Of a stretch of 60,430 nt of DNA, positions 705 to 60,277 are shown piece by piece. Within the stretch, counting starts at the first letter, position 1. The number at the start of each line of letters is the position of its first letter. Where the stretch lies: positions 1 through 60,430 of the forward strand of contig CAITDI010000122.1 of the NCBI GenBank assembly GCA_903891095.1, in the 5' to 3' direction. The notes beneath the pieces were generated by a model, which worked only from the letters and a program-made list of their open reading frames with translations, ran no database searches and was not told where the DNA came from. Origin of the DNA: an uncultured bacterium (GTDB lineage Bacteria > Planctomycetota > Phycisphaerae > Phycisphaerales > SM1A02). The position numbers were made by a program, and so were the translations under genes.

Positions 705-1829
705 GTGAGCAGCTCCACCCGCATTTCCATCGAGATCCCCGGCAGCCCGACGAGCCTTGTCGTTGCGCGCGGTGCGATCGCTCGCCTGGCGGACACACTC
801 ACGGAGTCGCTGGTTTCGGTCAACGACCGGCGCGTGCTCCTCGTGGTGGATCGCAATGTCACTGCGCTCGGCGCGCGTGCGGCCGCCTCGCTTGCCGCGG
901 CGCATGCACACGTCTCCGCGATCCACCTCGACGCAACCGAGGCGCAGAAATCCCTCGCATCCGTCGACGCGATCTGGCATGCCGCCCTCGCGGCGCGGCT
1001 CGATCGTGGCGGGCTGATCATCGCTGTCGGCGGTGGACTTGTCGGCGATCTCGCGGGATTTGCCGCGGCGAGCTACTTGCGCGGAATCGACTTCGTCCAG
1101 GTCCCGACCACGCTGCTCGCGATGGTCGACGCAGCGATCGGCGGCAAGACCGGCATCAATCTCGCGATCCCAGGTGGCGGGCTTGGCAAGAACCTCGCGG
1201 GCGCCTTCTGGCAGCCCAAGGTCACGGTCGCCGACGCCGACGCGCTCGCGACGCTGCCGCCGCGCGAACTTCGCGCGGGGCTCGCCGAGTGCATCAAGCA
1301 CGCCGTCATCGCGGGCGAACCGCGATTTGCCGCGCTCGAGGCCGACGCCGAACGCCTCTGCGCGGGCGATGCCGCCGCGCTCGATCGGCTGATCCCGACT
1401 TCCGCGGCCGTGAAGGCGGAGATCGTCTCGCGCGATCCCTTCGAGCGCGGCGATCGTGCGAAGCTCAACCTCGGCCACACCTTCGGGCACGCGATCGAGA
1501 CCCTGCCCGGGCTCGATCTCCTGCACGGCGAGGCGGTCGCCATCGGCATGCACGCGGCCTGCCGTTGCGCTGTGGTCGATGGGCTCCTCGATTCGGCGAC
1601 ATCGGATCGCATCGTTCGCCTGATCGCGCGTTGCGGCCTTCCGACGACGCTTCCGCCCGGACGAGTCTCCGCCGAGGAGATCGTTCGCCGCATGGGTTTC
1701 GACAAGAAGGCCGAGGGCGGAAAGCTCCGCTTGGTCCTGCCGCGCGCGATCGGAACCGTGACGATCGAGCAGGGCGACCACGCCTCCGGAGTTGCCGCGG
1801 GAATCGCCGCGATCGGCGCCGGGCGCTGA
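705..1829 (+). CDS. aroB: 3-dehydroquinate synthase
   Basis: This enzyme converts 3-deoxy-D-arabino-heptulosonate 7-phosphate to 3-dehydroquinate, step two of the shikimate pathway, in the cytosol with NAD and a divalent metal. The 374-residue protein has the family length. The NAD-binding GGG-LVGDLAGFAA stretch, the VPTTLLAMVDAAIGGKTGIN segment, the metal ligand region E-C-I-K-H and the NLGHTFGHAIE motif with its metal-binding His residues are all readable. The start is GTG at 705; no nearer ATG fits the N-terminal beta strand. ParA-CBM48 follows 48 bases later on the same strand, so cotranscription is possible, although the pair has no obvious metabolic link. Confidence 0.96.
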   Translation: MSSSTRISIEIPGSPTSLVVARGAIARLADTLTESLVSVNDRRVLLVVDRNVTALGARAAASLAAAHAHVSAIHLDATEAQKSLASVDAIWHAALAARLDRGGLIIAVGGGLVGDLAGFAAASYLRGIDFVQVPTTLLAMVDAAIGGKTGINLAIPGGGLGKNLAGAFWQPKVTVADADALATLPPRELRAGLAECIKHAVIAGEPRFAALEADAERLCAGDAAALDRLIPTSAAVKAEIVSRDPFERGDRAKLNLGHTFGHAIETLPGLDLLHGEAVAIGMHAACRCAVVDGLLDSATSDRIVRLIARCGLPTTLPPGRVSAEEIVRRMGFDKKAEGGKLRLVLPRAIGTVTIEQGDHASGVAAGIAAIGAGR

Positions 1830-1877: not shown

Positions 1878-3290
1878 ATGCGCGTCGTAGCCATCGTCAA
1901 CCAGAAGGGCGGCTGTGGCAAGACCACCACCGCGGTCAATCTCGCTGCAGTCTTTGCGCGCGATGGCGTGCGGACTCTGCTCGTCGACATGGATCCGCAG
2001 TCGCATTGCGCTGCGGGCCTCGGCGTGCCGGACCAGCGCATCGAGCGCACGATCGCCGACGCGATGGTCGCCGACCATTCGCAGGCGCTCAGGCCCGAGG
2101 AATACCTCTGGGAGGTCGGCCGCAACCTGCATCTCGCGCCGTCCAACGTGAACCTCTCGCTGCTCGAGGCGCCAAACGGCCCGCTCGCGCAGCGCTTCGA
2201 TCGCGATCGCCGTCTCGCGCGCGTGCTCGGCGCGTGGCAGGACCGCTTCGACTGGTGCGTCATCGACTGCCCGCCGACGATCGGCCTGCTCACGTTCAAC
2301 GCGCTGCGCACTGCGGATCTCGTGCTGATTCCCGTCGAAACCGGCTTCTTCAGCCTCAAGGGCGCGGAGAAGCAGATCCAGACCATCGACGCCGTCGTGA
2401 GCCGTTTCGGTCGCGAGATCGCGTACCGGCTGCTGCCGACGATGGTCAACGAGCGCCGCGCGCTTTCGCGCGATGTGGTCGAGGCGCTTGGTCGCCGCTT
2501 CCCCGAAGCGCTTCTGCCGTTCTCGATTCGCGAGCACGAGGAACTGCGCGACGCGGCGAGCTACGGCCAGTCGATCACCGAGTTCGCGCCGGGCTCTGCG
2601 GCCGATGCCGATTTCAGCATGCTTGCGACCTGGCTGCGCGGCAACGCGCCGCTCCGCCGCGTGCTCGAGCAGTACGGCAGCGAGTCGTCGCTTGGCGGCG
2701 TGGCTCCGACGCCGCAGATCGAGACGTTCACGCCCTCCGCGATTTCGCCTGCGATGCATGCGGTTTCCGCGGTCGAGGCGCCGAATGCGCATCACGCCCA
2801 TCAGGCTCATCACGCTCATCACGCGCATCACAGCGACCAGCAGGACGCCGTGCAGCAGGCCCTGCAGCAGGTGCAGTCGCCTTCGGCAGGTGCCGATCGC
2901 ACGGCGGATCTCGTCTCGCGCGTTCGTGCGATGACCGACAAGGCTCGCCAGGTCTCGACGGTTGGCGGCGGCTTCGGTCCGCGCGCGCAGCGCGACGGCG
3001 TCGTCGTCTTCTCGCTGCCGTTCTCGCGGCACGCGACGTCGGTCGTCGGCGACTTCAACCAGTGGGATCCCAACGCCACGCCGTTCATCGAGAGCGCCGA
3101 CCAGCGTCGTCTTGAGGCGACCGTGCTGCTCTCCGCCGGAACGCACGCGTATCGCATCGTGGTGAACGGCGAGGAAGTCCTCGACGGTTTCAACGAGCTT
3201 CGCGACGAGTCGATCCATGCGAATCTCGTCGTCGTGCCCGCGCAGCGCGAGGAACATGCAGGCGCAATGCCCGCAGAGGATCGCCGCTGA
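1878..3290 (+). CDS. ParA/MinD-type ATPase fused to a C-terminal glycogen-binding (CBM48) domain
   Basis: Residues 1-250 are a ParA/Soj-like P-loop ATPase. The deviant Walker A KGGCGKTTT is near residue 11, a DMDPQSH switch near 38, and the Walker B segment VIDCPP near 128. Such ATPases position plasmids, chromosomes or protein complexes. A low-complexity linker follows, with a His-rich run (about residues 304-318). The final 80 residues (about 375-455) carry the GDFNQWD motif and aromatic beta-sandwich pattern of CBM48/AMPK-beta glycogen-binding domains. This fusion is unlike ordinary ParA, and no parB lies nearby. The stop overlaps the next start (TGATG). I infer, without proof, an ATPase that positions something relative to a glucan or glycogen. 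Confidence 0.85.
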   Translation: MRVVAIVNQKGGCGKTTTAVNLAAVFARDGVRTLLVDMDPQSHCAAGLGVPDQRIERTIADAMVADHSQALRPEEYLWEVGRNLHLAPSNVNLSLLEAPNGPLAQRFDRDRRLARVLGAWQDRFDWCVIDCPPTIGLLTFNALRTADLVLIPVETGFFSLKGAEKQIQTIDAVVSRFGREIAYRLLPTMVNERRALSRDVVEALGRRFPEALLPFSIREHEELRDAASYGQSITEFAPGSAADADFSMLATWLRGNAPLRRVLEQYGSESSLGGVAPTPQIETFTPSAISPAMHAVSAVEAPNAHHAHQAHHAHHAHHSDQQDAVQQALQQVQSPSAGADRTADLVSRVRAMTDKARQVSTVGGGFGPRAQRDGVVVFSLPFSRHATSVVGDFNQWDPNATPFIESADQRRLEATVLLSAGTHAYRIVVNGEEVLDGFNELRDESIHANLVVVPAQREEHAGAMPAEDRR

Positions 3291-4762
3291 TGTCCGTGGC
3301 GACGAACTCGGGCTTTGTGTCGGATGCATGGTTGCCGCGCCGCAGGACGCTTGTCCTCGTCGGGCATCTTCCGCACGCTGGTGGCACGTGGTTGTCGCAG
3401 TTCGCCGACCGTGAGGCCGTCGACTTCGGTCCGGTTTGCCTGCTTCGTCCGAGCGAGGAGGGAACGCAGATCAGCGTCTATCGCGCGAAACGTGGCGCGG
3501 TGACGCTGGGCTCGTACCCGTCGGTCGAGGCCGCGCTCAACGACATCGCGCACAGCGTCGCGCGGTGGATGATCGTCGCGCGCACTCCGTCGCAGGTCGA
3601 GATCCCCGAAGGCTTGGACGACATCGTCGTGCTGACCGCTGCCCATCAGGCGGCGGTGTACCAGGCCGTGTTGCTCGTCGTGCGCTGTCTCGACGCGCTC
3701 TCAAACCGGCCCGCGCCGCGACCGAGAGTCTCCGTGGTCGTGCTCGGCGCGACCGCCGAAGAGCACGCGGTCGTCGCGGCAAGCATCGCCGACTCCATCG
3801 GCCCGCCGAACGCTGCGCTGATCGACGTGCGTCGATCCGTGCAGCGAGTGGGGCCTGTGCAGCACCTCGAAGGAGATGCTGCAGGCACCGTGCATTCGCT
3901 CGCAAAGCTCTTCAAGTCCCTCGATGAAGTCGAGGCCGGTCCGCGTTCGCCAGCGGACTCGCCCTCGCCCTCGACTTCGCCCTCGACCTCGCCCTTCAAG
4001 GCTGAATCCATGCCAGAACCCAGGCTCAACCGGTTTGAATCGAACGCGAGCCGCCAGGCTCCTTCCGCAGGTTTTTCCGCGCCCGCCGCGCCTTCGGCGC
4101 ATGTCGGTTCGCCGGCGCATCCGCCGCGCCGCGACGAGGGACCGCTGCCGTTCCCGCCGATCGAGCCTGCGCCCACGCGCGCCGGCAGGGGCACTGAGCC
4201 CGTGCGCACGCCGCCTTCAACCGTCCCGCCGTCCTCGGCCGTTGAGCCGCGCGACGACGCGTGGGCGCGTCGCACCATCGAGTCTGCGTCGGAAACGATC
4301 CGCGCCGCCGGCGCGGCGAGTCCCGCTTCGACGCGCGATGCGTACTACGCGTCGAGCGTCTCGGGTCCGTCCGCGCGCACGCCGAACGCGAAGCTCGTCG
4401 ATCCCGCACAGGCAGAAATCGAGTCCCTGAGCGAGCATCTTTCGGGCCTCGAGAAGATCCCGCATGTGCCGCCGCGCTGCGAGCGCATCGAGCTCGCGGT
4501 CTCCGCCGACGGACGCCTTCATGTCGCGTGCCGCGTCGAGGACATGCTCATGCTGCAGCGCGCACGCGTCTGGGTTCGCGAGAACGGCGCGCTGCTTTGC
4601 CGCGCCTTTCCGTCGATCCGCGGTGCGGAGGACTTTGCCGTGCACGTCTTCGTGCGCAGCCTCGCCGACGCGCAGCCGGTCGATGGCGCGGATGTGCATC
4701 TCGCGCAACTCGTCGAGATCCAGGGTCGCCGCGGCTGGCTGGTGCAGCAGCTCGCGTTCTGA
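3290..4762 (+). CDS. Unknown protein coupled to ParA-CBM48; possible degenerate P-loop N-terminus
   Basis: The gene starts within the stop codon of the ParA fusion, so translation is coupled. The 490-residue product has three parts. An alpha/beta N-terminal region (about 1-210) contains GHLPHAGGTW where a ParA-like Walker A would lie, without a catalytic GKT. A long Pro/Ser/Ala-rich linker (about 211-370) includes a Ser-Pro-Ser-Thr repeat. A compact C-terminal domain (about 385-490) is rich in Arg and Val strands. There is no signal peptide or membrane segment. I do not recognise the family. It may be a catalytically dead partner of the ATPase, by analogy with other paired ParA-like systems. 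Confidence 0.7.
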   Translation: MSVATNSGFVSDAWLPRRRTLVLVGHLPHAGGTWLSQFADREAVDFGPVCLLRPSEEGTQISVYRAKRGAVTLGSYPSVEAALNDIAHSVARWMIVARTPSQVEIPEGLDDIVVLTAAHQAAVYQAVLLVVRCLDALSNRPAPRPRVSVVVLGATAEEHAVVAASIADSIGPPNAALIDVRRSVQRVGPVQHLEGDAAGTVHSLAKLFKSLDEVEAGPRSPADSPSPSTSPSTSPFKAESMPEPRLNRFESNASRQAPSAGFSAPAAPSAHVGSPAHPPRRDEGPLPFPPIEPAPTRAGRGTEPVRTPPSTVPPSSAVEPRDDAWARRTIESASETIRAAGAASPASTRDAYYASSVSGPSARTPNAKLVDPAQAEIESLSEHLSGLEKIPHVPPRCERIELAVSADGRLHVACRVEDMLMLQRARVWVRENGALLCRAFPSIRGAEDFAVHVFVRSLADAQPVDGADVHLAQLVEIQGRRGWLVQQLAF

Positions 4763-4783: not shown

Positions 4784-5833
4784 CTAGGACGGCAACGACG
4801 CATCGAGCACACGCGCGAGGTTCGCGTGGGTGTATCCGTCGACGGTGCCGCCGAGCGCCGAAAAACCCGCGTTTTCCAGCCCTTCCAGCAGGCGCGCGTA
4901 CTCCGCTGGCGACTGGATCTCGAGCGGAAGCTGCTCGCGTCCGAAGCCGCCGTCGAGGTCGCTGCCGAGTCCCACGCGCGACGCGCCCACGATGCGTGCG
5001 ATGTGCATCGAGTGCGCGACGCAGTCGGCGAGCGTCGCGCGTCGCTCGTGCGCGAGGAATCGACCGTAGAGATTCAGTCCGATCCATCCGTCGCGGTCGC
5101 GGATCGCTGCGATCTGCGCATCGGTGATGTGCCGCTCGCTGTCGGGCAGCAGGGCGGCTGCGTTCGAATGCGACGCGATCACGCGCGCGTTGCTCGTGGC
5201 GAGCAGTTCGTCGAACGCCGCGCGCGAGAGATGCGACGCGTCGTGCAGGATTCCGCTGGCGTCGAGCGACTCCACCATGCGTCGGCCGATCGGCGTGAGT
5301 CCGCCGGCGCGCGCGTTGCCGCCGGAATAGCGGCTTCCGTGCGCCCAGCTCATCCCGACCACGCGGAGTCCGCGCGCGTGCCACCACGCGACCTCGTCGG
5401 GCGACCTGATCGGGTCGGCGCATTCCATGAGGATCACGATGCCGAGCGGGCCTTCGCCCGCGAGTGCGCGCGCCAGATCGCGACGCGTGCGCACGATGGC
5501 GATCTCGCCCGCGCGTTCCATCGCCTCATACCACTCGAGCTGCGCGAGTCCCGCGCGATGCGCGCCTTCGAGGTCGTCCGAGTCGCGGTACGCCACGGCC
5601 TCGGTCGCGGGATTTCCGCCGCACTCCGTGAAGATGGCGCCCAACGCCACCCGCACGCCACCCTCGCGCAGCGCGGGCAGCGTCAGCGCGTGCGGCGCCG
5701 TCGCAGGAACCGTCGCGCGCATGTCGCGCCCGTTGAGGCCGAGGTACGCGAGGTCGAGATGGCCGTCGATCCAGCGCAGGCCGCGTGCGGTCGCGTGAGT
5801 TACGGGCTGAAACGGAGTCGGTTGGGAAGCCAT
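4784..5833 (-). CDS. Membrane dipeptidase (peptidase family M19)
   Basis: The 349-residue protein is a metal-dependent dipeptidase of the renal dipeptidase family. The metal motif DGHLD near the N-terminus (usually DGHND), the HDASHLS and IASHSNA segments and the GSDLDGG motif near the C-terminus match the family. The usual bridging glutamate is hard to assign by eye. An upstream in-frame extension exists, but the Met at 5833 starts just before the conserved domain and gives normal length. There is no clear signal peptide, so it is probably cytosolic. It is divergent from the DUF2752 gene, with a 73-base shared promoter region, and convergent with the gene ending at 4762. Confidence 0.88.
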   Translation of the reverse strand: MASQPTPFQPVTHATARGLRWIDGHLDLAYLGLNGRDMRATVPATAPHALTLPALREGGVRVALGAIFTECGGNPATEAVAYRDSDDLEGAHRAGLAQLEWYEAMERAGEIAIVRTRRDLARALAGEGPLGIVILMECADPIRSPDEVAWWHARGLRVVGMSWAHGSRYSGGNARAGGLTPIGRRMVESLDASGILHDASHLSRAAFDELLATSNARVIASHSNAAALLPDSERHITDAQIAAIRDRDGWIGLNLYGRFLAHERRATLADCVAHSMHIARIVGASRVGLGSDLDGGFGREQLPLEIQSPAEYARLLEGLENAGFSALGGTVDGYTHANLARVLDASLPS

Positions 5834-5906
5834 GGGATCGGAAAGGTACGTGACGGCGCTTCGCAGCGGGTGTTTGCGCGCCGCGGCGCGGATACGCTGT
5901 CCTTCC

Positions 5907-6410
5907 GTGTCCGAACTGCCCCACATCCCGCCGCTTGCACAAGCCCCGGTCGTGCCGATCCCGATGCTCGCGACCGGCGAGGTCCTGCGTCGGCGGATGG
6001 CTGCGCTGGTGGTGTTCGGCTGCACTTCCGCGCTCCTCGGACTGGCGTGGTGGCTGAACCCATCGCCGAAGGGTTTCGGGACGCATCAGGCGCTTGGGCT
6101 TCCGCCGTGTTCGTGGCCGGAGCGCTTCGGGGTACCATGTCCCGCTTGTGGAATGACCACGTCCTTCGCGTACGCGTCGAAGGGCCGACTTCTTGAGAGC
6201 TTCGCGACGCAGCCGATGGGCTGCCTCCTCGCGATCGCCTGTGGGATGGCGCTGGTCGGATCCGCGTGGACGCTGGTGACGGGCCGCACCGTATGGCCCG
6301 TGTACGAGCGTCTCTGGAACGCGCGCGCTGCGTGGCTGATCGGCCTCGTTGCGCTCCTCGCTTGGGGCTACAAGGTCGCGGTCATGCGCGACTGGATAGG
6401 TTTCGGTTGA
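5907..6410 (+). CDS. DUF2752 membrane protein
   Basis: The 167-residue product has three hydrophobic segments and the DUF2752 signature, a CPxCGMTTS motif followed by a short loop and a second membrane helix. The function of the family is unknown; the two cysteines suggest metal or redox chemistry at the membrane. GTG at 5907 is chosen because the residues upstream are Arg-rich and unlike the family. Its stop overlaps the ATG of the following lipoprotein gene, so the two are probably cotranslated. Confidence 0.82.
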   Translation: MSELPHIPPLAQAPVVPIPMLATGEVLRRRMAALVVFGCTSALLGLAWWLNPSPKGFGTHQALGLPPCSWPERFGVPCPACGMTTSFAYASKGRLLESFATQPMGCLLAIACGMALVGSAWTLVTGRTVWPVYERLWNARAAWLIGLVALLAWGYKVAVMRDWIGFG

Positions 6411-7102
6411 TGATGCAGACTCGAACGATCCAATCTCCACGCCTGACCGCCATGCTTCGCGCATCGGCGATGGTCGCGTGCGCCGGTCTCCTGTTCGCGT
6501 CGAGCGGCTGCATCGCCGGTCTCGTCGGCGCCCTCGGCCAGCAGATCGACCGCGGCAAGAAGCTCGACGTTCCCGCGCAGTACGACGGGCTCGAGGACAA
6601 GACCTGCGCCGTGATCGTGAACGCCGACTACGCGACGCTCGTCGAGCATCCGCAGGTCGTCGGCAACATCACTGCGAACGTCGCCTTCCGCATCCACCAG
6701 TACGTGAAGGGCGCGACGGTGCTTGCGCCGGCCACCGTGCTCGACTGGCAGTACCGCACGCCGCAGTGGCGCGCGCTTCCGTACGGCGAGATCGCGAAGG
6801 AACTGGGCGTCGATCGCCTCGTGCACATCGATCTCTACGAGTACCGGCTGAATCCGACGGGCAACAGCTATCTTTGGGACGGCGTCGCCGGCGCGAATCT
6901 CGGCGTCGTCGAGGCCGATGGCCTGGCGCCCGACGAGTTCGTGTTCTCGACCAACATCGTCGTCAAGTTCCCCGACAAGGAAGGCGTCGGCCGCGAGTCC
7001 GCCCAGCGCACCGACATCGAGCGCGGCGTGCTGACGCTCTTCGTGCAGCGCGCGTCGTGGCTGTTCTTCGAGCACATCGAGGACAAGTATCCGAACAAGT
7101 GA
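6410..7102 (+). CDS. Lipoprotein of unknown function (first of a pair)
   Basis: A basic N-terminus, hydrophobic stretch and lipobox ending FASSGC (about residue 30) predict an exported lipoprotein. The 230-residue product then has a mixed alpha/beta body including a GVDRLVHIDLYEY stretch. The start ATG overlaps the stop of the DUF2752 gene. The next gene also encodes a lipoprotein of similar size and pattern (short linker, KKxxV strand, two-domain body), suggesting distant paralogues. I do not recognise the family. Confidence 0.8.
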   Translation: MMQTRTIQSPRLTAMLRASAMVACAGLLFASSGCIAGLVGALGQQIDRGKKLDVPAQYDGLEDKTCAVIVNADYATLVEHPQVVGNITANVAFRIHQYVKGATVLAPATVLDWQYRTPQWRALPYGEIAKELGVDRLVHIDLYEYRLNPTGNSYLWDGVAGANLGVVEADGLAPDEFVFSTNIVVKFPDKEGVGRESAQRTDIERGVLTLFVQRASWLFFEHIEDKYPNK

Positions 7103-7163
7103 CGCGTTCCGTCGCCGCGACTTCTTCGCTCCTGTGATTTCCAGCGTTTCGAGCACCAGCACC

Positions 7164-7868
7164 ATGTCTTCAAGCCATTCTTCCAGCATCGTCGCGCGCG
7201 CAGCATTGGTTGCGGCGTCGGCGTGCGTTTGCGCGGTCCTGTCGTCGTGCAACATCGTCACGCCCGTCGCCTACGCGATCAACGGTCCCGGCAAGATCGA
7301 CGCCGAGTACACGCTGCCGAACAAGAAGACGGTCGTCTTCATCGACGATCCGAAGAACATCCTGCCCCGCACCGCCCTCCGCACGGCGATCGGCGACGCG
7401 GTCTCGTTCGACCTGATGCAGCGCGAACTGCTGACATCGACGGTCGCCACGCGCGACGCGATCGCAGTGGCCCGCACGTCGAGCGGCGGCAACTCGGCCA
7501 AGCTGGCGTCGGTCGAATCGATCGCGCACTCGCTCGACTGCAGCCAGGTGATCTACGTGCGTCCCACGACGTTCGACCTCGCCGGCCGCAGCGATACGCA
7601 GGGCCTTCGTCCCACCGCGGTCGTGCGCGTGAAGGTGATGGACATCGACCTGCAGCAGCGCACATTCCCGGCGTCGGAGATCCTGCCGGAAGGCCGCGAG
7701 GTCACGGCGACGATCCGCGAGAGCGATCCCGAGATCCTCCGCACGCGCGCCGGACGCGCGCAGCTCGAGGAGCAGCTCGCCAAGAAGCTCGCCGTCGAGA
7801 TCGCGCAGCTCTTCTACGAGCACGACCGCATCAATCTCGGCGAGAACCTCGGCACGCGGAAGAAGTGA
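7164..7868 (+). CDS. Lipoprotein of unknown function (second of a pair)
   Basis: The product begins with a Ser-rich basic segment, a hydrophobic Ala/Val stretch and a lipobox ending AVLSSC. A mature domain of about 200 residues follows, with a DDPKNILPRTALR segment and a QVIYVRPT strand. It resembles the preceding lipoprotein in layout only. An in-frame GTG lies at 7134, but ATG 7164 gives the shorter, typical signal peptide. It probably belongs to the same operon as 5907-7102, with 61 bases separating the two lipoprotein genes. Function unknown. Confidence 0.8.
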   Translation: MSSSHSSSIVARAALVAASACVCAVLSSCNIVTPVAYAINGPGKIDAEYTLPNKKTVVFIDDPKNILPRTALRTAIGDAVSFDLMQRELLTSTVATRDAIAVARTSSGGNSAKLASVESIAHSLDCSQVIYVRPTTFDLAGRSDTQGLRPTAVVRVKVMDIDLQQRTFPASEILPEGREVTATIRESDPEILRTRAGRAQLEEQLAKKLAVEIAQLFYEHDRINLGENLGTRKK

Positions 7869-47893: not shown

Positions 47894-47923
47894 GTTGAGC
47901 CAACGATCCTAAAGGATGAAGCG

Positions 47924-47957
47924 CAGCCCCGCCGAAAGGCGGGGCTGTTGCGTTTTG
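47924..47957 (+). terminator. Terminator after the second sorting-tail gene
   Basis: CAGCCCCGCC (47924-47933) pairs perfectly with GGCGGGGCTG (47938-47947) around GAAA, followed by TTGCGTTTT. Confidence 0.88.
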
Positions 47958-48095
47958 CGGTTGATGGTGGGTGACGCGAGCGCGGCTTCGATCAGCGCGA
48001 CTCACACCAGAGGAAGCAGCCGCAGCTGCGACCGCTCAAACCAAGGCAGCGAAGAAGTCGAAGCCGCTCGCGGCTTCGACGACAGTCGCTGCCGC

Positions 48096-49184
48096 TCAAA
48101 CATTGAACAGGAAGTGCGTGATATCCCCGTCCTGCATCACGTACTGCTTGCCTTCCGCGCGCAGCTTGCCTGCCTCGCGGATCGCCTTCTCGCTGTGGAA
48201 CTGCTCGAGGTCCGCCAGCGTGAAGATCTCGGCGCGGATGAAGCCGCGCTCGAAGTCGGTGTGGATCACGCCCGCGGCCTGCGGGGCGGTGAAGCCCTTC
48301 TGGATCGTCCACGCGCGGACTTCCTTCTCGCCGGCGGTGAAGTAGCTCTGCAGGCCGAGGAGGTCGTAGGTGCCGCGCACGACGGTCGCGAGCGCGGGCT
48401 CCTTCATGCCCATGCTCTCGAGCATTTCCTTGCGGTCGGCCTCGGGGAGCTCGGCGAGCTCGCTCTCGATCTTGGCGCAGACCACGACGACCTTGCCGCC
48501 GGTGGACTTCGCATGCGCGCGCACGCGGGCGACGAGCTCGCCCTCGTTGCCGATCTGCGATTCGTCGACGTTGGCGACGTACAGCGTGGGCTTGGCGGTG
48601 ATCATGCCGAGCGTGCGGAGGAGCTTGAGCTCGTCGCCCTCGAGCGTGAGCGAGCGGATCGGCTCGCCGGCGTTGAGCGCGGTGAAGCACTTTTCCAGCA
48701 CGGAAACGCGGAGAATCGCCTCCTTGTCGCCCGACTTGGCGGTGCGGCGCGACTTGTCGAGCGAACCCTCGACCACTTGGAGGTCGGCGAGCAGGAGCTC
48801 GGTCTCGATGGTGCCGATGTCGCGCAGCGGATCGACGGAGCCGTCGACGTGCGTGATGTCGTTGTCGATGAAGCAGCGCACCACGTGCAGTACGGCGTCG
48901 ACCTCGCGGATGTGCGAGAGGAACTTGTTGCCGAGGCCTTCGCCGGTCGACGCGCCCTTGACGATGCCCGCGATGTCGACGAGGCGCACGGCCGCGGGGA
49001 TGACCTTCTGGGTCTTGATGTGCTTCTGGATCCGCTGGAGGCGGTCGTCGGGGACGCTCACGACGCCGACGTTCGGCTCGATCGTGCAGAACGGGTAGTT
49101 GGCCGCCTCGATGCCCGCTGCAGTGAGGGCGTTGAAGAGCGTGCTCTTGCCGACGTTGGGGAGACCGACGATGCCTGCTTCCAT
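48096..49184 (-). CDS. ychF: Ribosome-binding ATPase YchF/Obg-like
   Basis: The 362-residue protein has the P-loop [14 protein letters not shown] near residue 7, the switch and [20 protein letters not shown] segment, and the C-terminal TGS-like domain ending [11 protein letters not shown]. YchF binds ribosomes and acts in stress responses; it prefers ATP to GTP. The ATG at 49184 starts the family sequence; upstream residues are Pro/Arg-rich shadow. It is divergent from the efflux genes, with 105 bases between starts. Confidence 0.96.
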
Positions 49185-49289
49185 GGTGATTCTCGCGTGA
49201 TCCGCCCGCGGATGTGGCTGCGGGGAAGGGGGAGGATGGTAGCGGAGAGGGCGGCGGGGTGGGCGGTCACGCTCTACCATGCGCCCCCT

Positions 49290-50540
49290 ATGTCGCCAGC
49301 CCTTCGCCGCCGTGCCGTTGTCCTTGCCGTCTCAGCTGTTGCGGTCGTCGCCGCGCTCGCCGCTGGCGCGCGCGTCGCTCGCGCCCAGGACGGTGGCGCT
49401 GGCGGCTCTGCCGCGCCCGCCGGCCCGCCGCCGACGCCCGTCAAGGTCGCGGCCGTCCGCAGCGAGAAGCTCGCGCCGCGCAAGAAGGTCTTCGGCGAAC
49501 TCCACGCCGCGCACCGCTCGGTGATCGCGGCTGAGGAGGGCGGCATCGTCCGCGAGGTCCTCGTCCACGAAGGCGAGAAGGCCGCGGCGGGCGCCGTCCT
49601 CGTGCGGCTCGACGACGCGCGTCTCAAGCTCGCGGCCGCAGCCAACGCGGCGAGCCTCTCGTCCGCGCGCGCGGCCGTCGTCGAGCGCGAGGCGATGCTG
49701 GCGCGCACCGAGCGCGACCTCGACCTCATGAAGCGCGCCGCGTCGCAGGGCGGCACCAACCCGCGCGAGATGTCCGACTCGGAGAGCGCGGTCGCCGTCG
49801 CGCGCGCGCAGCTCGCGCAGGCCAAGGCCGCGGTCGCGATCGTCGAGCAGCAGGGCGCGTTGATCACCAAGCGCGCCGCCGACCTCGAGGTGCGTGCGCC
49901 GTACGCGGGCGTCGTGACCGCGCGGCACGCCGATGTCGGCGCGTGGGTCGCGGACGGCGGCGCGGTCGTCGACTTCCTCGGCACCGAGGAGCTCGAGGGC
50001 TGGTTCGAGGTCCCGCAGGAACTCTTCGGCGCGGCGATGGACCTCGTCGCGCAGGCCGACAAGCACCTCACGCGCGCGGTTCCCGTCGACATCCAGAGCG
50101 CGACCGGGCAGGACATCAAGGCGGTCGGCATCCGCGTGGTGCCTGAGATCGATCCGCGGTCGCGCACCTTCCACGCGGTGCTCAGGATCATGCGCGAGGA
50201 CGACGTGCCGCTCGCGTCGGGGCTCGCGCTGACGGCGTATGTGCCCGCGGGCGCGCTCGCGCCGCGGCTGCTCGTTTCAAAGGACGCGATCCTCCGCGGA
50301 GATGCGGGGCCGTTTGTCTACGCCGTGCGCGGCGGGATCGCGATGCCCGTCAACGTGCGCATCGCGTTCCCCGCGGGCGCGGATGTCGCGCTTGAGCCTG
50401 GCTCGCTTGAGGAAGGCGCGCAGGTCGTGGTCGAGGGCAACGAGCGCCTGAGGCCGATGTCGCCCGTCGCGCCGCTCGCGGCTGCCGCCGCGCCGTCCGC
50501 CACCGCACCGTCCGCCGCCGGATCGGAAGGCAAGAAGTGA
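49290..50540 (+). CDS. RND efflux periplasmic adaptor (membrane fusion protein)
   Basis: The 416-residue protein has a signal sequence (residues 1-32, [11 protein letters not shown]), a Pro-rich linker, a biotinyl-lipoyl-like domain ([20 protein letters not shown] and [20 protein letters not shown]), a coiled-coil of Ala/Arg/Glu helices between them, and a C-terminal beta-barrel with an Ala-rich tail. It links an inner-membrane RND pump to an outer membrane channel. The permease gene overlaps its stop by four bases. No outer-membrane factor gene is nearby. Confidence 0.92.
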
Positions 50541-53500
50541 AGATCGTCGAAGGCTCGATCCGCCAGCCGGTGACCGTGTTCGTCGCGGTCGTGATCGTGC
50601 TGCTCGCGGCGCTCGTCGCGGTGCGCAAGGTCCCCGTGCAGCTCACGCCCGACGTCGAGGACACGATCATCAGCGTGTCGACCGTCTGGCCGGGCGCGTC
50701 GCCCGAGGAGGTCGAGCAGTCGATCGTCGAGAAGCAGGAGGAGAAGCTCCAGGGCGTCGCCGGCATCCGCACGATGACGAGCAACGCCTCGCAGGGCTCC
50801 GCGCGTGTGCGCCTCGAGTTCGCGCCTGGCACCGACAAGGAGGCCGCGATCCGCGAGGTGAGCGATCGCCTGCGCCAGGTGGCGAACTATCCCTTCGGCG
50901 TCGACCAGCCCGTCGTCGAGGCGAGCGATCCCGAGAACAAGGACTACATCGCGTGGATCGTGCTCGCGGCGCCGGGCGCGACGGGCCCCGACGGCAAGCC
51001 GTTCGACATCCGCATCCTGCAGGACTTCGCGGTCGACCGCGTCAAGCCGCAGCTCGAGCGCGTGAACGGCGTGGCCGAGGTCAACATCCTCGGCGGGCGC
51101 GAGCGCGTGCTGCAGGTGCGCATCGATCCCGCGGCGCTCGCGTCGCGCGGCGTGACGATCTCGCAGCTCTCCGCGGCGCTGCGCGCAGCCAACCAGAACG
51201 CGCCCGCCGGCTCCATCGCCGAGTCCAAGCGCGACGTCGTGCTGCGCTCGGTCAGCCAGTTCGAGACGCCCGAGGACGTCGCGCGCGTCGCGATCGGGCA
51301 GGGCGCCAGCGGCCCGATCCTCGTGGGCGACGTGGCCGAGGTCGTGCAGACTTGGAAGAAGCCCGTCAGCTTCGTCCGCTCGCAGGGCGTGCCCGTCCTC
51401 GCCATCAACGTGCAGAAGGAAGTCGGCACGAACGTCATCGAGGTCATGGACGGCGTCAAGGCCGCGCTCAAGGAGCTCGGCGAGACCGGTGGCATCCTCG
51501 ACAGCCAGACGCACGCGCTCGGGCTGTCGAAGCCGCTCGCGGTCGAGATGGTGTTCGACCAGACGATCTACATCGACGAGGCGCTCAACCTCGTGCTCGA
51601 CAACATCTGGCAGGGCGGCCTGCTCGCGGTGATCACGCTGGTCGTGTTCCTGCGCTCGTGGCGCAGCATCGTGATCGTGGCGACCAGCGTGCCGCTCGCG
51701 GTCGTCGCCACGGTGATCGTGATGCTCGGCTTCGGCCGCACGATCAACGTCGTGAGCCTCGCGGGCTTCGCGTTTGCGATCGGCACGCTCATCGACAACT
51801 CGATCGTCGTCCTCGAGAACGTCGTGCGCCACATGGAGATGGGCAAGGACGCGCGCAAGGCGGCGATGGTCGGCACGCAGGAGGTCGCGGGCGCGATCCT
51901 CGGCTCGACGCTCGCGACGTGCGTGGTGTTCATCCCGATCTTCCTGATCGGCGACGAGGTGGGGCAGCTCTTCCGCGACATCTCGCTGGCGATCCTGATC
52001 TCGAACCTGCTGTCGATGGTGGTGTCGATCACCTTCACGCCGTGCATCTGCGCGTTCCTGCTCAAGCCGCCGAGCAGGAAGAAGGACGCGGGCGCCAGTG
52101 AGCCTGCAAAGCCCGGCCTCGGCGACCGCTTCGCCACCGCGATCGCGCGCTGGGTGTTCAAGATGTCGCGCCGCAGGCTCGCGAGCCTCGCGTTCGTGCT
52201 GGCGATGATGGCGGCGTCGGTCCTCGGCAGCTACTTCCTCATGCCGCCCGCGGACTACCTGCCCAAGGGCAACCGCAACCTCGTGTTCGGCCTGATCCTG
52301 CCGCCGCCCGGAACCTCGAGCGCGATGCAGGAAGACCTCGCGAAGCGCGTCGAGAGCACCGTCGCGCCGTACTGGGATCACAACCTTCCCGCGCGCGGAA
52401 CGACCGAGCGCGCGGCCGCCGAGCGGCTGCTGCCCAAGGTGCCCGTCACGCCGTGGATGACCTTCAAGTACGGCACCGAGGTCCAGCCCGCGCCGCTTGA
52501 GAACTACTTCGTCGTCGGCTTTAGCGGGACGATGTTCCACGGCGGCATCTCGACCGATCCGTCGCGTGCGGCGTACAACGAGCATCTCCTCGGCTACGCG
52601 ACGCGCGCCGAGAAGATGCCGGGCACGCTGGCGTTCGCGTTCCAGGTGCCCTTGTTCCGCACGAGCGGTTCGTCGGGCAGCGCGGTCGCGGTCGACCTGC
52701 GCGGCGACGACCTCGACGGCGTCAAGGCCGCGGCGGGCGCGATGATGGGGCGCTTCATGGGCAAGTTCGGCCCGATGAGCGTGCAGCCCGACCCCGCGAA
52801 CTTCGCGACGCCGGGCCTCGAGGTGCGCGTGAAGCCCGACCAGCGCCGCATGTCGGACGCGGGCGTCTCGTCGACCGACGTGACGCTCTCGGTCGCAGCG
52901 GCCGGCGACGGCGCGCTGATCGACGAGTACAAGGCGGGCGGCAGTTCGATCGACCTCGTGATCATCGACCGCGCGAGCGCGCAGGCCGCGGAGGCCGAGG
53001 TCTCGAGCGACGCCGACAATGTCTCCGACGTGCCCGTCGCGCTGCCCGCGGGGCGGCTCGCGTCGGTCGGGCAGCTGGCCGATGTCGAGCGCGGCGCCGC
53101 GGCGACGCAGATCAACCACGTCGACCGCCAGCGCTCGGTGCGCCTGCAGGTCACGCCGCCGCCGACGATGGCGCTCGAGACCGCGGTCACGACGATCAAG
53201 GCCGAGCTCGCCGCCGCGCGCGCCGACGGCTCGGTGCCTGCGGGCGTGATCAGCGAGGTCGCGGGCACCGCGAGCGCGCTCGCGAACGTGCGCGCGGAGC
53301 TCATCGGCGACGGCACGGTCATCGGCTTCCTCACGAGCACGGTGTTCCTCGCGCTCCTCGTGTGCTACCTGGTGATGGCGGTGCTCTTCCAGAGCTTCAT
53401 GCTGCCGTTCGTGATCATGTTCAGCGTGCCGCTCGCGGCGGTCGGTGGCTTCGCGGCGCTGTTCGCGGTGTTCATCATCAGCCTCACGAGCCCGACGCTG

Positions 53501-53968
53501 CCGATGCAGTCGCTCGACGTGCTCACGATGCTCGGCTTCGTGATCCTGATCGGCGTCGTCGTCAACAACGCGATCCTGCTGGTCCACCAGACGGTCAACT
53601 TCCAGCGCGGCACGGCCGACGAGACGCCGTCCGATGCGGCGTTCCGCGGGCTGCCCGACGCGCCGACCGTGACCGAGGGCGGCAAGCTGCCGCTCAACGC
53701 CGCGATCGCCGAGAGCGTGCGCACGCGCGTGCGTCCGATCCTCATGAGCGCGTTCACGAGCTGCGCGGGCCTGATCCCGCTGATCCTCGCGCCCGGCGCG
53801 GGCAGCGAGCTCTACCGCGGCCTCGGCGCCGTGATGGGCGGCGGACTGCTGGTGTCGACGGTGTTCACGATCGTCGTGGTGCCGCTGGTGATGGCGGTCC
53901 TCGTGCGCGACAGGCCGGACGCGACGGCCGATGCGGTCAGGCCGGACGCTTCGCCAGCATCGACTTGA
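50537..53968 (+). CDS. RND efflux transporter, inner-membrane permease
   Basis: The 1143-residue protein has the HAE1/AcrB layout: a transmembrane helix near residue 15, a large periplasmic region with SVSTVWPGASPEEVEQSIVE, six helices beginning at LVLDNIWQGGLLAVITLVVF, a second periplasmic loop and six more helices. The proton-relay helix reads FAIGTLIDNSIVVLENV, with a single Asp where AcrB has two. Substrate cannot be read. The GTG start overlaps the adaptor gene. Its 3' end overlaps the converging histidine kinase gene by 32 bases. Confidence 0.94.
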   Translation: MKIVEGSIRQPVTVFVAVVIVLLAALVAVRKVPVQLTPDVEDTIISVSTVWPGASPEEVEQSIVEKQEEKLQGVAGIRTMTSNASQGSARVRLEFAPGTDKEAAIREVSDRLRQVANYPFGVDQPVVEASDPENKDYIAWIVLAAPGATGPDGKPFDIRILQDFAVDRVKPQLERVNGVAEVNILGGRERVLQVRIDPAALASRGVTISQLSAALRAANQNAPAGSIAESKRDVVLRSVSQFETPEDVARVAIGQGASGPILVGDVAEVVQTWKKPVSFVRSQGVPVLAINVQKEVGTNVIEVMDGVKAALKELGETGGILDSQTHALGLSKPLAVEMVFDQTIYIDEALNLVLDNIWQGGLLAVITLVVFLRSWRSIVIVATSVPLAVVATVIVMLGFGRTINVVSLAGFAFAIGTLIDNSIVVLENVVRHMEMGKDARKAAMVGTQEVAGAILGSTLATCVVFIPIFLIGDEVGQLFRDISLAILISNLLSMVVSITFTPCICAFLLKPPSRKKDAGASEPAKPGLGDRFATAIARWVFKMSRRRLASLAFVLAMMAASVLGSYFLMPPADYLPKGNRNLVFGLILPPPGTSSAMQEDLAKRVESTVAPYWDHNLPARGTTERAAAERLLPKVPVTPWMTFKYGTEVQPAPLENYFVVGFSGTMFHGGISTDPSRAAYNEHLLGYATRAEKMPGTLAFAFQVPLFRTSGSSGSAVAVDLRGDDLDGVKAAAGAMMGRFMGKFGPMSVQPDPANFATPGLEVRVKPDQRRMSDAGVSSTDVTLSVAAAGDGALIDEYKAGGSSIDLVIIDRASAQAAEAEVSSDADNVSDVPVALPAGRLASVGQLADVERGAAATQINHVDRQRSVRLQVTPPPTMALETAVTTIKAELAAARADGSVPAGVISEVAGTASALANVRAELIGDGTVIGFLTSTVFLALLVCYLVMAVLFQSFMLPFVIMFSVPLAAVGGFAALFAVFIISLTSPTLPMQSLDVLTMLGFVILIGVVVNNAILLVHQTVNFQRGTADETPSDAAFRGLPDAPTVTEGGKLPLNAAIAESVRTRVRPILMSAFTSCAGLIPLILAPGAGSELYRGLGAVMGGGLLVSTVFTIVVVPLVMAVLVRDRPDATADAVRPDASPAST

Positions 53969-57131: not shown

Positions 57132-59690
57132 TCACTCCGCGTGCGCGACCACCATCGAGTACGGCGGCAGCGCGACCTTGCCGCGCGCGGTCGCGAGCTG
57201 CTCGGTGCCCGCGCGCGTCGCGTCGACGACGATCGTCCACTCGCCGGGCGGCAGGTCGACCTCGAGCGCGCCCGGCTCGTCGTTGTAGGCGACGAAGATG
57301 CGCTTCCACGCGTCGCCCGCGACGCGGCCGTCGAGCGTGAACGCGACGGTGCGGCCCGCGTTCATGAACGCGAGCGCCTTGCGGACCTCGGCGTCGTCCG
57401 ACATGCGGAACGCCGGATGCGCGCGCCTGAGCTGCGCGAGCCCCGCGGTGAACGCGGCGACGTCGCCGTAGTCCTTCGCGCGCTGCCAGTCGAACGCGTT
57501 GACGTCGTCGCCCGAGGTGTACGAGTTGTGGTCGCCGCGCTTGGTGCGCGCGAACTCGCTGCCGCCGTGGATGAACGGCACGCCCTGCGCGGTGAGGACG
57601 ATGCCGAGCGCGAGCTTCTGCATCGCGCGCTTGGTGGCGTCGCTGGCGGAGGGCTGCGTCTTCTCGATCTTGTCCCAGAGGCAGAGGTTGTCGTGCGCGT
57701 CGGCGTAGTTGATGGTCTCGGTCGGCTCCTGCGTGAACGTGTCGATCGCGCCCGCGACGCCGCGGCGGATCGCGCCGTCGTCGCCGCCCGGTCCCGTGGC
57801 GAATCCGACCGCGCTGCCGTCGAGGTCGCCGCGGATCGCGTTGCGGAGATCGTCGTTGAACACCGCGATCGGCAGGCCTTTCTGCGCGCCCTTGCCGAAG
57901 TGCGTCGGGCCGCCGCCCGTCCACGGCTCGCCGTAGAGCGTGGCGTCGGGGCGGATCGACTTGACGCGCGCGCAGATCGCGCGCACGGTCTCGGGCATGT
58001 GCGTGCCGAGGAGATCGAAGCGGAATCCGTCGACCTTGTAGTCGCGCAGCCAGTGCTCGAGGCTGTCGAGGATGTACTTGCGCGCCATCGGGCGCTCGTC
58101 GGCGAATCCGTTGCCGGTGCCCGAGTCGTTGGTGAGCCGGCCCGCGGGCGTCGTGCGGAAGAAGTAGTACGGCGCAGGCGCGCTGAACGGCGCGTTCGGC
58201 CCCGCGTCCGAGGTGTGGTTGTAGACGACGTCGAGGAGCACGCGGAGCTTGGCCGCGTGCAGCGCGGTGATCGCGGTGCGGAGGTCGCGGATCGCGCGCG
58301 TTGGATCGCGCGGATCGGTCGAGTAGTTCGACTCGGGCACGTTGAAGAGCGTGGTCCAGTAGCCCCAGTTGTACTCGTCGCTGCGCGCGGTGAAGTCGTG
58401 CACGGGGAGGAGATGCACGGCGGTCACGCCGAGATCGCGCAGGTACGCGGTGTTGTGCGCGAGCCCGAGGTAGGTGCCGCGCTGCTCCGGCGGCGTCGCG
58501 GCGTTGCGCACGCTGAAGTCGCGCACGTGCGTCTCGTAGATGATCTCGTCGGTCGCGTGCGCGACGGTCGGCGCGGCGGTGGTCGCGAAGCCGTCGGGCT
58601 CGAGGCGCGCGAGATCGACGACGACGGTGCGCGAGCTGTCGGCGTTGGCGGCGTACGCCCACATGTCGGTGGTCTCGCGCGGTTCGCCGTAGTTGGCAAA
58701 GCGGTAGCGGTAGCCGACGCCGTGGAGGTCGCCGGCGACGGTGGTTTCCCACGCGCCCTTCGCGGTGCGGGCGAGGGGGATGGTGCGGGTGGGCGTGGCA
58801 GTGGGATTCGCGGGATTCGCCGCGTTTTCGTAGAGCAGGAGGTCGACCGCGTCGGAGACGGGCGACCATGTGGCAAATCGCGTCGACTCGCGCGTGCAGA
58901 ACGCGCCGAAGCGCGCGTCGGCGGCGGGCATGAAGGCGTCGCCTTCGAGGACGCCGCGCGCGTAGACCGTCGCAGGGCGGAGGTCGGCGATCAGCGCGGG
59001 CTGGAAGCGCACCTCGAGCTGCGCGATGTCGGCCGCGTCGACGTCGTTGGCGAGCGTGATGCGGAGGAGCTTGTCGCCGGCGATGGACTTGATGCGCAGT
59101 TCGCGATTGGAACCGCGACGGTCGAACACCGCCACGCCTTTCTGCTCCTTGCGCTCGAGCGGCCGCGAGAGGGCGAGCGTGATCGTGCGCGCGTCGTCGA
59201 GGAACGCGCCCTCGACCTTGAGGCTGAGGTCGAGCTTCTTGGGGTCATCGGTGAACGCGGCTTCGCCGGACGTGACCCAGATCTCGCTCGCCGCGCCCGC
59301 CTTGAGCGTGACGAAGCGGTCCTGGTCGAAGTCCTTCTCCTCCCAGTTGCCGCGGCGCACGATGAAGCCCGCGCGCTTCGACGCGCTCGCGAACGGCACG
59401 ATCGCGTAGCGGCCGAAGGAGTCCTCGCCGGAGAGCGTGGCCTGCGCGCCATCGCCGCCTTCGGACCAGCACCAGAGGTTCCAGCCCGCGTAGTCGCCGG
59501 CTGGGCGGTGGTAGTGGACGACGAGCAACGCCTCGGCGGTCGCGCCGGCGACGGTGAAGTCGCGGGGCTTGAGCTTCCTGGCGATGCTGGGGAAGTCGCC
59601 TGCGGGTGCGAACGCGAGCACGGGCGCCGCCAGGGCGACGAACGTGAGAAGCGCGGTCAAAGTGGCGAGAACACGGCGAAAACGCGTCAT
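57132..59690 (-). CDS. Type I pullulanase (glycogen/starch debranching, GH13)
   Basis: The 852-residue protein has a signal peptide (RRVLATLTALLTFVALAAPV), a CBM41-like domain (about 50-150, with AGWNLWCWSEGGDG), a CBM48-like region, and the GH13 catalytic domain with VYNHTSDAGPNAP, the nucleophile Asp in DGFRFDLLGTH near 557, the acid Glu in LYGEPWTGGG near 588 and a late DAHDNLCLWD. It would cleave alpha-1,6 branches of extracellular or periplasmic starch-like glucans. Pullulanases usually read YNWGYDP; here YNWGYWT. The start ATG 59690 begins the signal peptide. Confidence 0.92.
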   Translation of the reverse strand: MTRFRRVLATLTALLTFVALAAPVLAFAPAGDFPSIARKLKPRDFTVAGATAEALLVVHYHRPAGDYAGWNLWCWSEGGDGAQATLSGEDSFGRYAIVPFASASKRAGFIVRRGNWEEKDFDQDRFVTLKAGAASEIWVTSGEAAFTDDPKKLDLSLKVEGAFLDDARTITLALSRPLERKEQKGVAVFDRRGSNRELRIKSIAGDKLLRITLANDVDAADIAQLEVRFQPALIADLRPATVYARGVLEGDAFMPAADARFGAFCTRESTRFATWSPVSDAVDLLLYENAANPANPTATPTRTIPLARTAKGAWETTVAGDLHGVGYRYRFANYGEPRETTDMWAYAANADSSRTVVVDLARLEPDGFATTAAPTVAHATDEIIYETHVRDFSVRNAATPPEQRGTYLGLAHNTAYLRDLGVTAVHLLPVHDFTARSDEYNWGYWTTLFNVPESNYSTDPRDPTRAIRDLRTAITALHAAKLRVLLDVVYNHTSDAGPNAPFSAPAPYYFFRTTPAGRLTNDSGTGNGFADERPMARKYILDSLEHWLRDYKVDGFRFDLLGTHMPETVRAICARVKSIRPDATLYGEPWTGGGPTHFGKGAQKGLPIAVFNDDLRNAIRGDLDGSAVGFATGPGGDDGAIRRGVAGAIDTFTQEPTETINYADAHDNLCLWDKIEKTQPSASDATKRAMQKLALGIVLTAQGVPFIHGGSEFARTKRGDHNSYTSGDDVNAFDWQRAKDYGDVAAFTAGLAQLRRAHPAFRMSDDAEVRKALAFMNAGRTVAFTLDGRVAGDAWKRIFVAYNDEPGALEVDLPPGEWTIVVDATRAGTEQLATARGKVALPPYSMVVAHAE

Positions 59691-59740
59691 GCGGCGAGTG
59701 TACTGGTTGGAACGCGCGATTCGAGCGTTACGCTTGGGGC

Positions 59741-60277
59741 ATGTCCGATGCACATGCACGTTTCGGGAAGCGGCCGGGGTCGATCGCGCCGCAGGTTCTC
59801 GCCGAGGTCGCGAAGCAGGCTGGCGCCGTCGCCGCGAGCGATGCCGCGGCGGCGGGGCCGCAGTGGGGCGCGATGCACAAGCTGCTGCTCAAGGCGAAGG
59901 TCGATCCGAACGCGATCATGAAGCTGGTCGCGAACCGCGACGCCGCCGGGCTTGCCGACATGGTGCGCTGGCTGCATGGCGAGGAAGTCGCGGCGCCGGA
60001 GCCGGAGCCCGAGCCGGCGGGGCCGGAGGTCGACATCGAGACGCAGCGCGCGGCGATCCGGGTGTTTCGCAAGCGGTTGCGGTACGCGCGGCTCGATGCG
60101 GAGTCGCGGCTCGGCGTCGGCCCAATGTCGAGCGGCAAGAAGAACGAGATCGACGCCATCGAGGCGCCGCGCGAGTACCCGATGAGCGTGTGGCGCGCGC
60201 TGGTCGCGGCGGGGCGGCTGAAGAGCGTGGGCGGGGGGTTCTTTGCGCTGGTGGTCGACGACGTCAGCGACGACTGA
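59741..60277 (+). CDS. Conserved small protein of unknown function
   Basis: The 178-residue product has no signal or membrane helix. It begins with an Ala/Gln-rich segment and has a helical region (VDPNAIMKLVANRDAAGLAD), a short Glu/Pro-rich stretch in the middle, and a C-terminal IRVFRKRLRYARLDAESRLG part with a VGPMSSG linker and a final strand pair. Family not recognised. It is divergent from the pullulanase by 50 bases. The REP-like hairpin cluster follows its stop. Confidence 0.6.
   Translation: MSDAHARFGKRPGSIAPQVLAEVAKQAGAVAASDAAAAGPQWGAMHKLLLKAKVDPNAIMKLVANRDAAGLADMVRWLHGEEVAAPEPEPEPAGPEVDIETQRAAIRVFRKRLRYARLDAESRLGVGPMSSGKKNEIDAIEAPREYPMSVWRALVAAGRLKSVGGGFFALVVDDVSDD

Follow-up and report, generated by a model that had tools for sequence, protein, structure and literature searches.

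A Soj-type ParA ATPase fused to an AMPK/CBM48-type domain, and its pseudo-ATPase partner: a candidate spatial-organization or anchoring system of the Phycisphaerales

What might a ParA-type ATPase do with a carbohydrate-binding type of domain at its C terminus and a dead ATPase as its neighbor? The question is raised by two genes, here called A and B, in a 60,430-nucleotide stretch of DNA (the window; contig CAITDI010000122.1 of assembly GCA_903891095.1) from an uncultured bacterium of the Phycisphaerales lineage SM1A02. Gene A (1878..3290, + strand; 470 residues) encodes a ParA-type ATPase with a C-terminal domain of the kind found in the β subunit of AMP-activated protein kinase (AMPK) and in carbohydrate-binding module (CBM) family 48. 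Gene B (3290..4762, + strand; 490 residues) encodes a pseudo-ATPase partner, and its start shares one base with the stop of A, i.e., the A of the TGA stop codon is the first base of the ATG. These coordinates and the shared base agree with a first-pass annotation made from the letters alone, which suggested that the pair either positions polysaccharide granules or forms a carbohydrate-gated assembly. In our best reading, A is a switch of the ParA type that has its own pseudo-ATPase partner and carries, as an accessory, a module of ancestrally glucan type. The intact ATPase, the dead MinD-like protein, and their close linkage agree with a ParA-type system that has a partner of its own, and we favor, while holding it somewhat short of probable, a lineage-specific system for spatial organization or anchoring.

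The ATPase part of A retains the Walker motifs of this type of enzyme. The Pfam family AAA_31 matched the gene A product with an E-value of 3.6e-43, and the Walker A motif, KGGCGKTT, is intact, as had been proposed in the first-pass annotation. Relatives of A were taken as the best 80 of 201 from a scan of genome contigs, and the locus L103, whose A was missed by the motif pattern, was left out of all A counts. In the alignment of 58 A proteins, the window protein included, K10, G11, G12, G14, K15, T16, D37, D39, and D130 are invariant (58/58), covering Walker A, A′, and B, with the signature lysine present. Residues 1-258 (1878..2651, + strand) form a Soj-type ParA domain, as judged from fold match and invariant residues: the solved structures most similar to the AlphaFold2 model were Soj/ParA (9a6n_A, Soj; VIA Z score 35.2, root-mean-square deviation [rmsd] 1.7, 250 residues aligned), with lower scores for McdA (Z 29.8), MinD (Z 27.7), and BcsQ (Z 26.8). 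The predicted local distance difference test (pLDDT) of this part was 80-98 per block. Going by its sequence, gene A is an intact Soj-type ParA ATPase with predicted activity. A defense system was also considered and rejected, the PADLOC matches being weak (0.00034 and 0.011) and confined to the ATPase part of A, with none to B.

Between the ParA domain and the CBM, the model has a disordered stretch (residues 280-338), followed by a conserved linker helix with the pattern R-A-x-E/D-L-x-x-R (residues 340-358; 2895..2951, + strand), defined from alignment and model. This segment is helical in the model, sits just before the CBM, carries R341 in 57/58 and R348 in 54/58 proteins, and is retained in A proteins that have no CBM. 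The His-rich linker that the first-pass annotation had pointed out is present in the window protein (2790..2831, + strand), and it adds little: a pattern search found it in 0/79 relatives, on which ground a metal site was rejected.

The C-terminal domain of A (residues 366-456; 2973..3245, + strand), which contains the motif GDFNQW, was assigned from profiles and model. In the window protein alone, AMPK1_CBM matched residues 388-440 with an E-value of 0.0013, at 19.3 bits against a curated cut-off of 26.8 bits and therefore sub-threshold, and CBM_48 gave 0.06. Across the family, AMPK1_CBM matched at E ≤ 0.01 in 50/58 A proteins (best 6.3e-15) and CBM_48 in 40/58. A profile built from 52 of these domains recovered AMPK β2 (2e-12) and AMPK β1 (3e-12) from the PDB, with weaker matches to pullulanase, a plant glucan phosphatase, and GlgB, whereas the window domain searched singly gave 0.73 at best. 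Residues 371-450 were modeled with a pLDDT of 94-98 per block. Sequence and model confidence are the basis of this assignment, the fold search of A having covered the ParA part. Thus, at residues 370-455, where the first-pass annotation had placed a CBM48-like domain, there are both family-level AMPK-β matches and a confidently modeled domain. We regard the CBM as genuine at the level of the family, and glucan binding as putative.

To what extent is the sugar site preserved? We compared four residues of AMPK β1, W100, K126, W133, and N150, which we take to be glucan contacts. The window CBM has W, R, E, and A at these positions, the last being alignment dependent, with an N directly following. 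Of the 52 aligned domains, 49 have W at the W100 position, 43 have R at the K126 position, 33 have W at the W133 position, and 32 have N at the N150 position. Hence the W133 position is occupied by another residue in 19/52, including the window domain with its E, and the AMPK set of contact residues is incomplete in the window CBM, where the second tryptophan is gone.

Gene B yielded less to direct searching. The window protein matched no Pfam family above cut-off, and no PDB sequence up to an E-value of 10. A profile of 56 B proteins, however, recovered FlhG (4rz2; E = 0.0058) and FleN (0.035) from the PDB. The model of B has two confident domains, joined by a Pro/Ser-rich linker of low confidence (residues 219-364; 3944..4381, + strand; pLDDT of blocks mostly 38-60). 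By profile and fold search the first (residues 16-218; 3335..3943, + strand) is an FlhG/MinD-like domain without a nucleotide site: residues 16-192 aligned with FlhG (4rz3_A) at a VIA Z score of 10.7 (rmsd 3.8, 160 residues aligned), the top seven rows were all FlhG or FleN (Z 9.3-10.7), other P-loop proteins following from 9.0 down, and Foldseek returned FleN (9.6e-4) and FlhG (1.6e-3). The alignment places GHLPHAGGTW (residues 25-34; 3362..3391, + strand) at the degenerate P-loop position. A GK[ST] P-loop occurs within the first 120 residues of 0/56 B proteins, and P28 and W34, at the position of the lost P-loop, are present in 56/56.

The second domain of B (residues 365-490; 4382..4759, + strand), delimited by alignment and model, is a conserved α/β domain without a family match, in which W428 is found in 56/56, G408 in 55/56, and H411 in 54/56 members. 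Any given Pfam family matched this domain in at most 1/56 members, and any NCBIfam family in at most 2/56; it was barely sampled by the fold search, in which the first domain filled the result list. The best PDB profile match of the domain, SecDF (0.025), was not trusted, and a bMG3 Pfam match of B (0.012), seen in one member of 56, was taken as chance. No ParB family matched B or its relatives. Sequence and model together support B as a dead relative of the MinD/FlhG ATPases with a C-terminal domain of its own, in keeping with the degenerate P-loop-like start and separate C-terminal domain described in the first-pass annotation.

The two genes are closely linked, on which the earlier pairing depended: B lies directly after A in 74/79 relatives, and by our own start rule its start overlaps the stop of A as ATGA in 27/59. 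In the five exceptions the contig ends at that point (four loci) or a different gene follows A (L079). Each of these five genomes nevertheless contains a match to B, which in two of them consists of fragments at the ends of contigs; in that of L079 it lies about 9 kb away, provided that both coordinate systems agree. The B profile was strong in 90/101 genomes of the window's family, while five had FlhG-like hits only, i.e., 5 of 95 matches, which were partial and were not counted as B, and six had none. All four listed genomes of one genus of this family, g23 (G022, G056, G080, and G098), were without a strong B, a possible genus-wide loss.

We also scanned 392 genomes of the phylum, scoring four candidates per genome, so that absences are not firm (the diverged B at locus L155 was missed). 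Strong B matches were found in 10/10 genomes of the family, 19/21 others of the order, and 0/10 others of the class; in the remaining 351 the best B-profile hit was 4.8e-12, and most hits spanned the FlhG-like region only. The relatives of A are mostly labeled Phycisphaerales, Phycisphaerae, or other Planctomycetota groups. Three bins labeled Kuenenia, Limnohabitans, and Leptolyngbya (L035, L042, and L100) also carry the locus, and are probably mislabeled or contaminated.

The fusion of ParA and CBM has a wider range. With the same four candidates scored per genome, A with a CBM was found in 7/10 genomes of the class outside the order, and all seven proteins carry the signature F-N-x-W, R, W, N-S, with the tryptophans at the W100 and W133 positions both kept. 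One of these loci, L155, has a diverged B (7e-16; L155:5213-6652) after A. Since the fusion reaches beyond the range of B, the ParA-CBM protein may have come first, B having joined it later or having been lost repeatedly. At another locus, a large open reading frame (L154:1249-3846), by eye an FtsK-type translocase, is convergent to a stand-alone ParA-CBM gene; its counterpart at L152 is 79% identical.

Within the family, the CBM is the part that decays. The 80 A proteins placed on a tree comprise 42 whose CBM has tryptophan at the W133 position, 23 whose CBM lacks it, and 15 with no CBM; two of the last (L068 and L082) are cut by a contig end and were removed from the CBM-absent group, although the tree still contains them. 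The CBM is therefore missing from 13 of the 78 A proteins that can be interpreted, all else in A being retained along with B, and the tree, read with those two disregarded, implies about four losses. W133 is present in the rows that branch first as drawn, at forks that are weakly supported, and the window's clade of 11 members has a CBM without W133 throughout (11/11). The CBM is dispensable, and these sequences make it most likely that it was ancestrally of the AMPK glucan-binding type, was changed in the window's branch, and was lost in others.

These findings bear directly on glycogen, the cargo suggested in the first-pass annotation. In such a scheme the CBM would hold A on α-glucan granules, and ATP-dependent nucleoid binding would spread the granules to daughter cells. 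Its attractions are the AMPK-β type of the CBM, with AMPK β2 and β1 as nearest solved relatives, and the frequency of both tryptophans, complete in the class-level proteins. A PF08323 (GlgA-type) match was also present in 36/40 near-complete genomes (34 above cut-off), and in the window's genome, where it was weak and partial (1.2e-8). When genomes from 50 of the 80 loci were compared (L082 being dropped, which left 13 CBM-free genomes; p values ignore kinship), PF08323 was found in 26/36 with the CBM and 8/13 without it (Fisher p = 0.5), and with no difference between the groups with W133 (14/19) and with another residue there (12/17). A branching-enzyme-like match (TIGR01515) showed a negative association, i.e., 19/36 with the CBM against 12/13 without (p = 0.017), at our own threshold of E < 1e-40, 2 of the 50 matches passing the curated cut-off. 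Five loci (L048, L051, L054, L057, and L058) have a CBM with W133 in genomes without a PF08323 match, as do three genomes with full-length A (G195, which is one contig, G369, and G036). The PF08323 matches were mostly weak and partial, and most genomes are metagenome bins, making this family a poor proxy in either direction; the comparison covered PF08323 and TIGR01515, with the GlgE and glycosyltransferase family 4 (GT4) routes lying outside it.

The neighborhood gave no more encouragement. The pullulanase noted in the first-pass annotation is real (57135-59759, - strand), and lies about 52 kb from the pair, so that it adds little; neither it nor the genome's candidate GT5-type synthase had a homologue among 6952 flanking open reading frames at 1e-5. 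A glycogen operon was rejected, no glycogen enzyme being recognized among the representatives of 30 recurrent neighbor clusters, of 290 clusters in all (21 had Pfam families, one of them a GT4-type glycosyltransferase, and nine had none). Because no glycogen gene was found among identified neighbors, the pullulanase is distant, the CBM has been lost about four times with B kept and does not track glycogen-type genes, and the AMPK site of the window is incomplete, glycogen as the cargo is not supported. Granule positioning in this form seems improbable, and glycogen is one of several candidate targets of the pair.

The same module could instead act as a sensor, in the manner of AMPK: a sugar or glucan bound at the CBM would change the ATPase or the partner state of A, with no cargo being moved. 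The carbohydrate-gated assembly named in the first-pass annotation is of this kind. An AMPK-β-type CBM joined to an ATP switch by a flexible linker would suit such a regulator, as would the decay of the CBM and its site separately from the core; against it stand, as for granule positioning, the missing association with glycogen-type genes and the absence of a linked output gene, and we consider it rather improbable. A broader alternative, which we rate as unlikely rather than improbable, is a class-wide ParA in which the AMPK-type domain links α-glucan to the ATP cycle and which was later joined by the pseudo-MinD subunit, the window's branch having moved to another ligand. If true, this would be the first ParA/MinD system to sense or position a polysaccharide.

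Could A simply serve the chromosome, either by pairing with the chromosomal ParB or as a second nucleoid ParA? Its fold is of the Soj type, and no ParA match lies within the first 8 kb of the contig that bears the main ParB of the window's genome. This genome has two ParB_N matches, on contigs C42 and C94, one of the proteins starting KLGRGLSALLG, as well as a separate FlhG-like match on C88. It also has another ParA, on C33, which scores better than A on AAA_31 (8.0e-52 versus 7.4e-44). Since there are another ParA and a ParB on other contigs, the chromosomal ParA may be a protein other than A, and A occurs with B rather than with ParB; a role in segregation is very improbable.

The most frequent upstream neighbor of the pair is aroB, encoding 3-dehydroquinate synthase (705..1829, + strand, in the window), a homologue of which is found in 59/74 loci having more than 1.5 kb of upstream sequence. 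Downstream, a DUF2752 protein recurs in 31/80 loci and a lipoprotein-like protein (by reading, with no Pfam match) in 30/80, both represented in the 5832-7868 region of the window. An M19 dipeptidase recurs near the pair in 30/80 loci. Farther along the window are an AcrB-type resistance-nodulation-division pump (50537-53968) and an upstream protein with an HlyD-type domain (47916-50540). A lipid A/lipopolysaccharide-type gene was present in the flanks of 32/80 loci, and of 23/45 with more than 5 kb on both sides; these genes differ by lineage, being LpxA-like at 13 loci (e.g., L071 and L074), PagL at 10 (L049 and L052), LpxK at nine, and HldE-like at seven (LpxK/HldE-like at L077 and L083). 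A GT4-type glycosyltransferase recurs at 10 loci.

This lipid A connection is a lead toward an envelope role, in which A and B would resemble BcsQ and its associates, i.e., a ParA ATPase and a dead ATPase-like subunit on a membrane-bound synthesis machine for envelope or polysaccharide. BcsE bears an inactive ATPase-like domain, CBP_BcsQ matches 58/58 A proteins, and BcsQ structures are recovered by fold (VIA Z 26.8). Because the lipid A genes lie near the pair, we raised our estimate of this explanation, and slightly lowered those of the spatial system, of glycogen positioning, of the sensor, and of the class-wide glucan-coupled ParA. However, the neighbor count was made post hoc and has no background rate, and most of these genes are separated from the pair by 2-4 kb and by other genes. 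The BcsQ family TIGR03371 scored 100.9 bits, the cut-off being 157.85, Soj is the nearer fold (Z 35.2), and Walker A differs (RGGVGTT in BcsQ, according to the available part of PMC9178275, against KGGCGKT in A). An envelope regulator is distinctly unlikely.

The spatial-organization or anchoring system that we favor would work as follows. With its intact deviant Walker A and signature lysine, A would form an ATP sandwich dimer, which would bind a surface, either nucleoid or membrane, and be released on hydrolysis. B, the dedicated partner of A in the order, would act as a docking or regulatory subunit through its MinD/FlhG-like domain with the nucleotide site lost; we infer that the linker helix of A would meet its pseudo-nucleotide face. 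The lineage-specific C-terminal domain of B would most likely contact cargo or effector, and the CBM would be an accessory contact module. That the linker helix and B persist where the CBM is gone supports this arrangement.

Several observations weigh against it. The data single out no cargo, and they would also suit a regulatory role of a non-spatial kind. The ParA domain of A is slightly acidic (isoelectric point 5.9), giving no support for DNA binding. For B, Foldseek also lists flavodoxins (from 6.6e-3) and other Rossmann-like folds with E-values little weaker than those of FleN and FlhG, and the N termini of the family are acidic (median net charge -4), the first 25 residues reaching at least +3 in 2/56 members; in the window protein the net charge is +2. 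Finally, six of the seven class-level A proteins outside the order have no recognizable B in the fetched flank, and two genomes within the order, G211 and G320, encode A but gave no B match in either genome search or flank. Because A occurs without a recognizable B in these six relatives and two genomes, it can probably work without B.

ParA/MinD ATPases organize many bacterial cargos, and for A, a ParA of the orphan type, the partner is defined, the pair being near-universal in the sampled genomes of one planctomycete order. The partners of orphan ParAs are described as an open problem in the available part of PMC10241942, the main text of which does not mention glycogen, polysaccharide, or carbohydrate. 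Orphan ParAs including BcsQ are treated in PMC9178275, and glycogen is not mentioned in its available part; glycogen is a predicted degradation substrate in Phycisphaerae in the portion available of PMC11266412. In the open-access literature searched, no description of a ParA-CBM fusion or of the A-B pair was found. In this pair a pseudo-ATPase would replace the usual activator and an AMPK-type module is fused to the motor. The role of each part can be tested directly in the natural series of proteins, in which the glucan site is intact or degenerate or the CBM is absent, and B is present or not.

How does the pair compare with known systems? A resembles ParA/Soj of ParABS in its fold, its deviant Walker A, and its Walker A′ and B motifs; unlike that protein, it has no adjacent ParB, a dead MinD/FlhG-like partner, and a C-terminal AMPK-type CBM. 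The McdA/McdB system, which positions carboxysomes, is similar in that a further ParA-family ATPase is accompanied by a partner of its own, and McdA is close in fold to A (Z 29.8); the Walker A of McdA, as given in the available part of PMC9178275, is SGGQGKT rather than KGGCGKT. Partners of ParA/MinD ATPases are described as acting via a positively charged, disordered N terminus (available part of PMC10241942). McdB-, ParB-, and PomX-type partners have such a basic N terminus, whereas B is a folded pseudo-ATPase, and in its family the N terminus is acidic, the conserved arginines being those in the linker helix of A. The N-terminal domain of B shares the fold of the MinD-like FlhG/FleN, but has no P-loop (0/56), and B has an extra linker and C-terminal domain. 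BcsQ, with BcsR/BcsE, is like A a ParA-type ATPase, and is tied to polysaccharide biology; A differs in falling below the TIGR03371 cut-off, in its Walker A, and in having no bcs gene among its identified neighbors. As for the AMPK β CBM and CBM48 (the AMPK CBM is described in the available part of PMC6274893), the domain of A differs in its fusion to ParA, in having R at the K126 position (43/52), and in lacking W at the W133 position in 19/52, and is like them in its profile match to AMPK β2 (2e-12) and in the tryptophan at the W100 position in 49/52.

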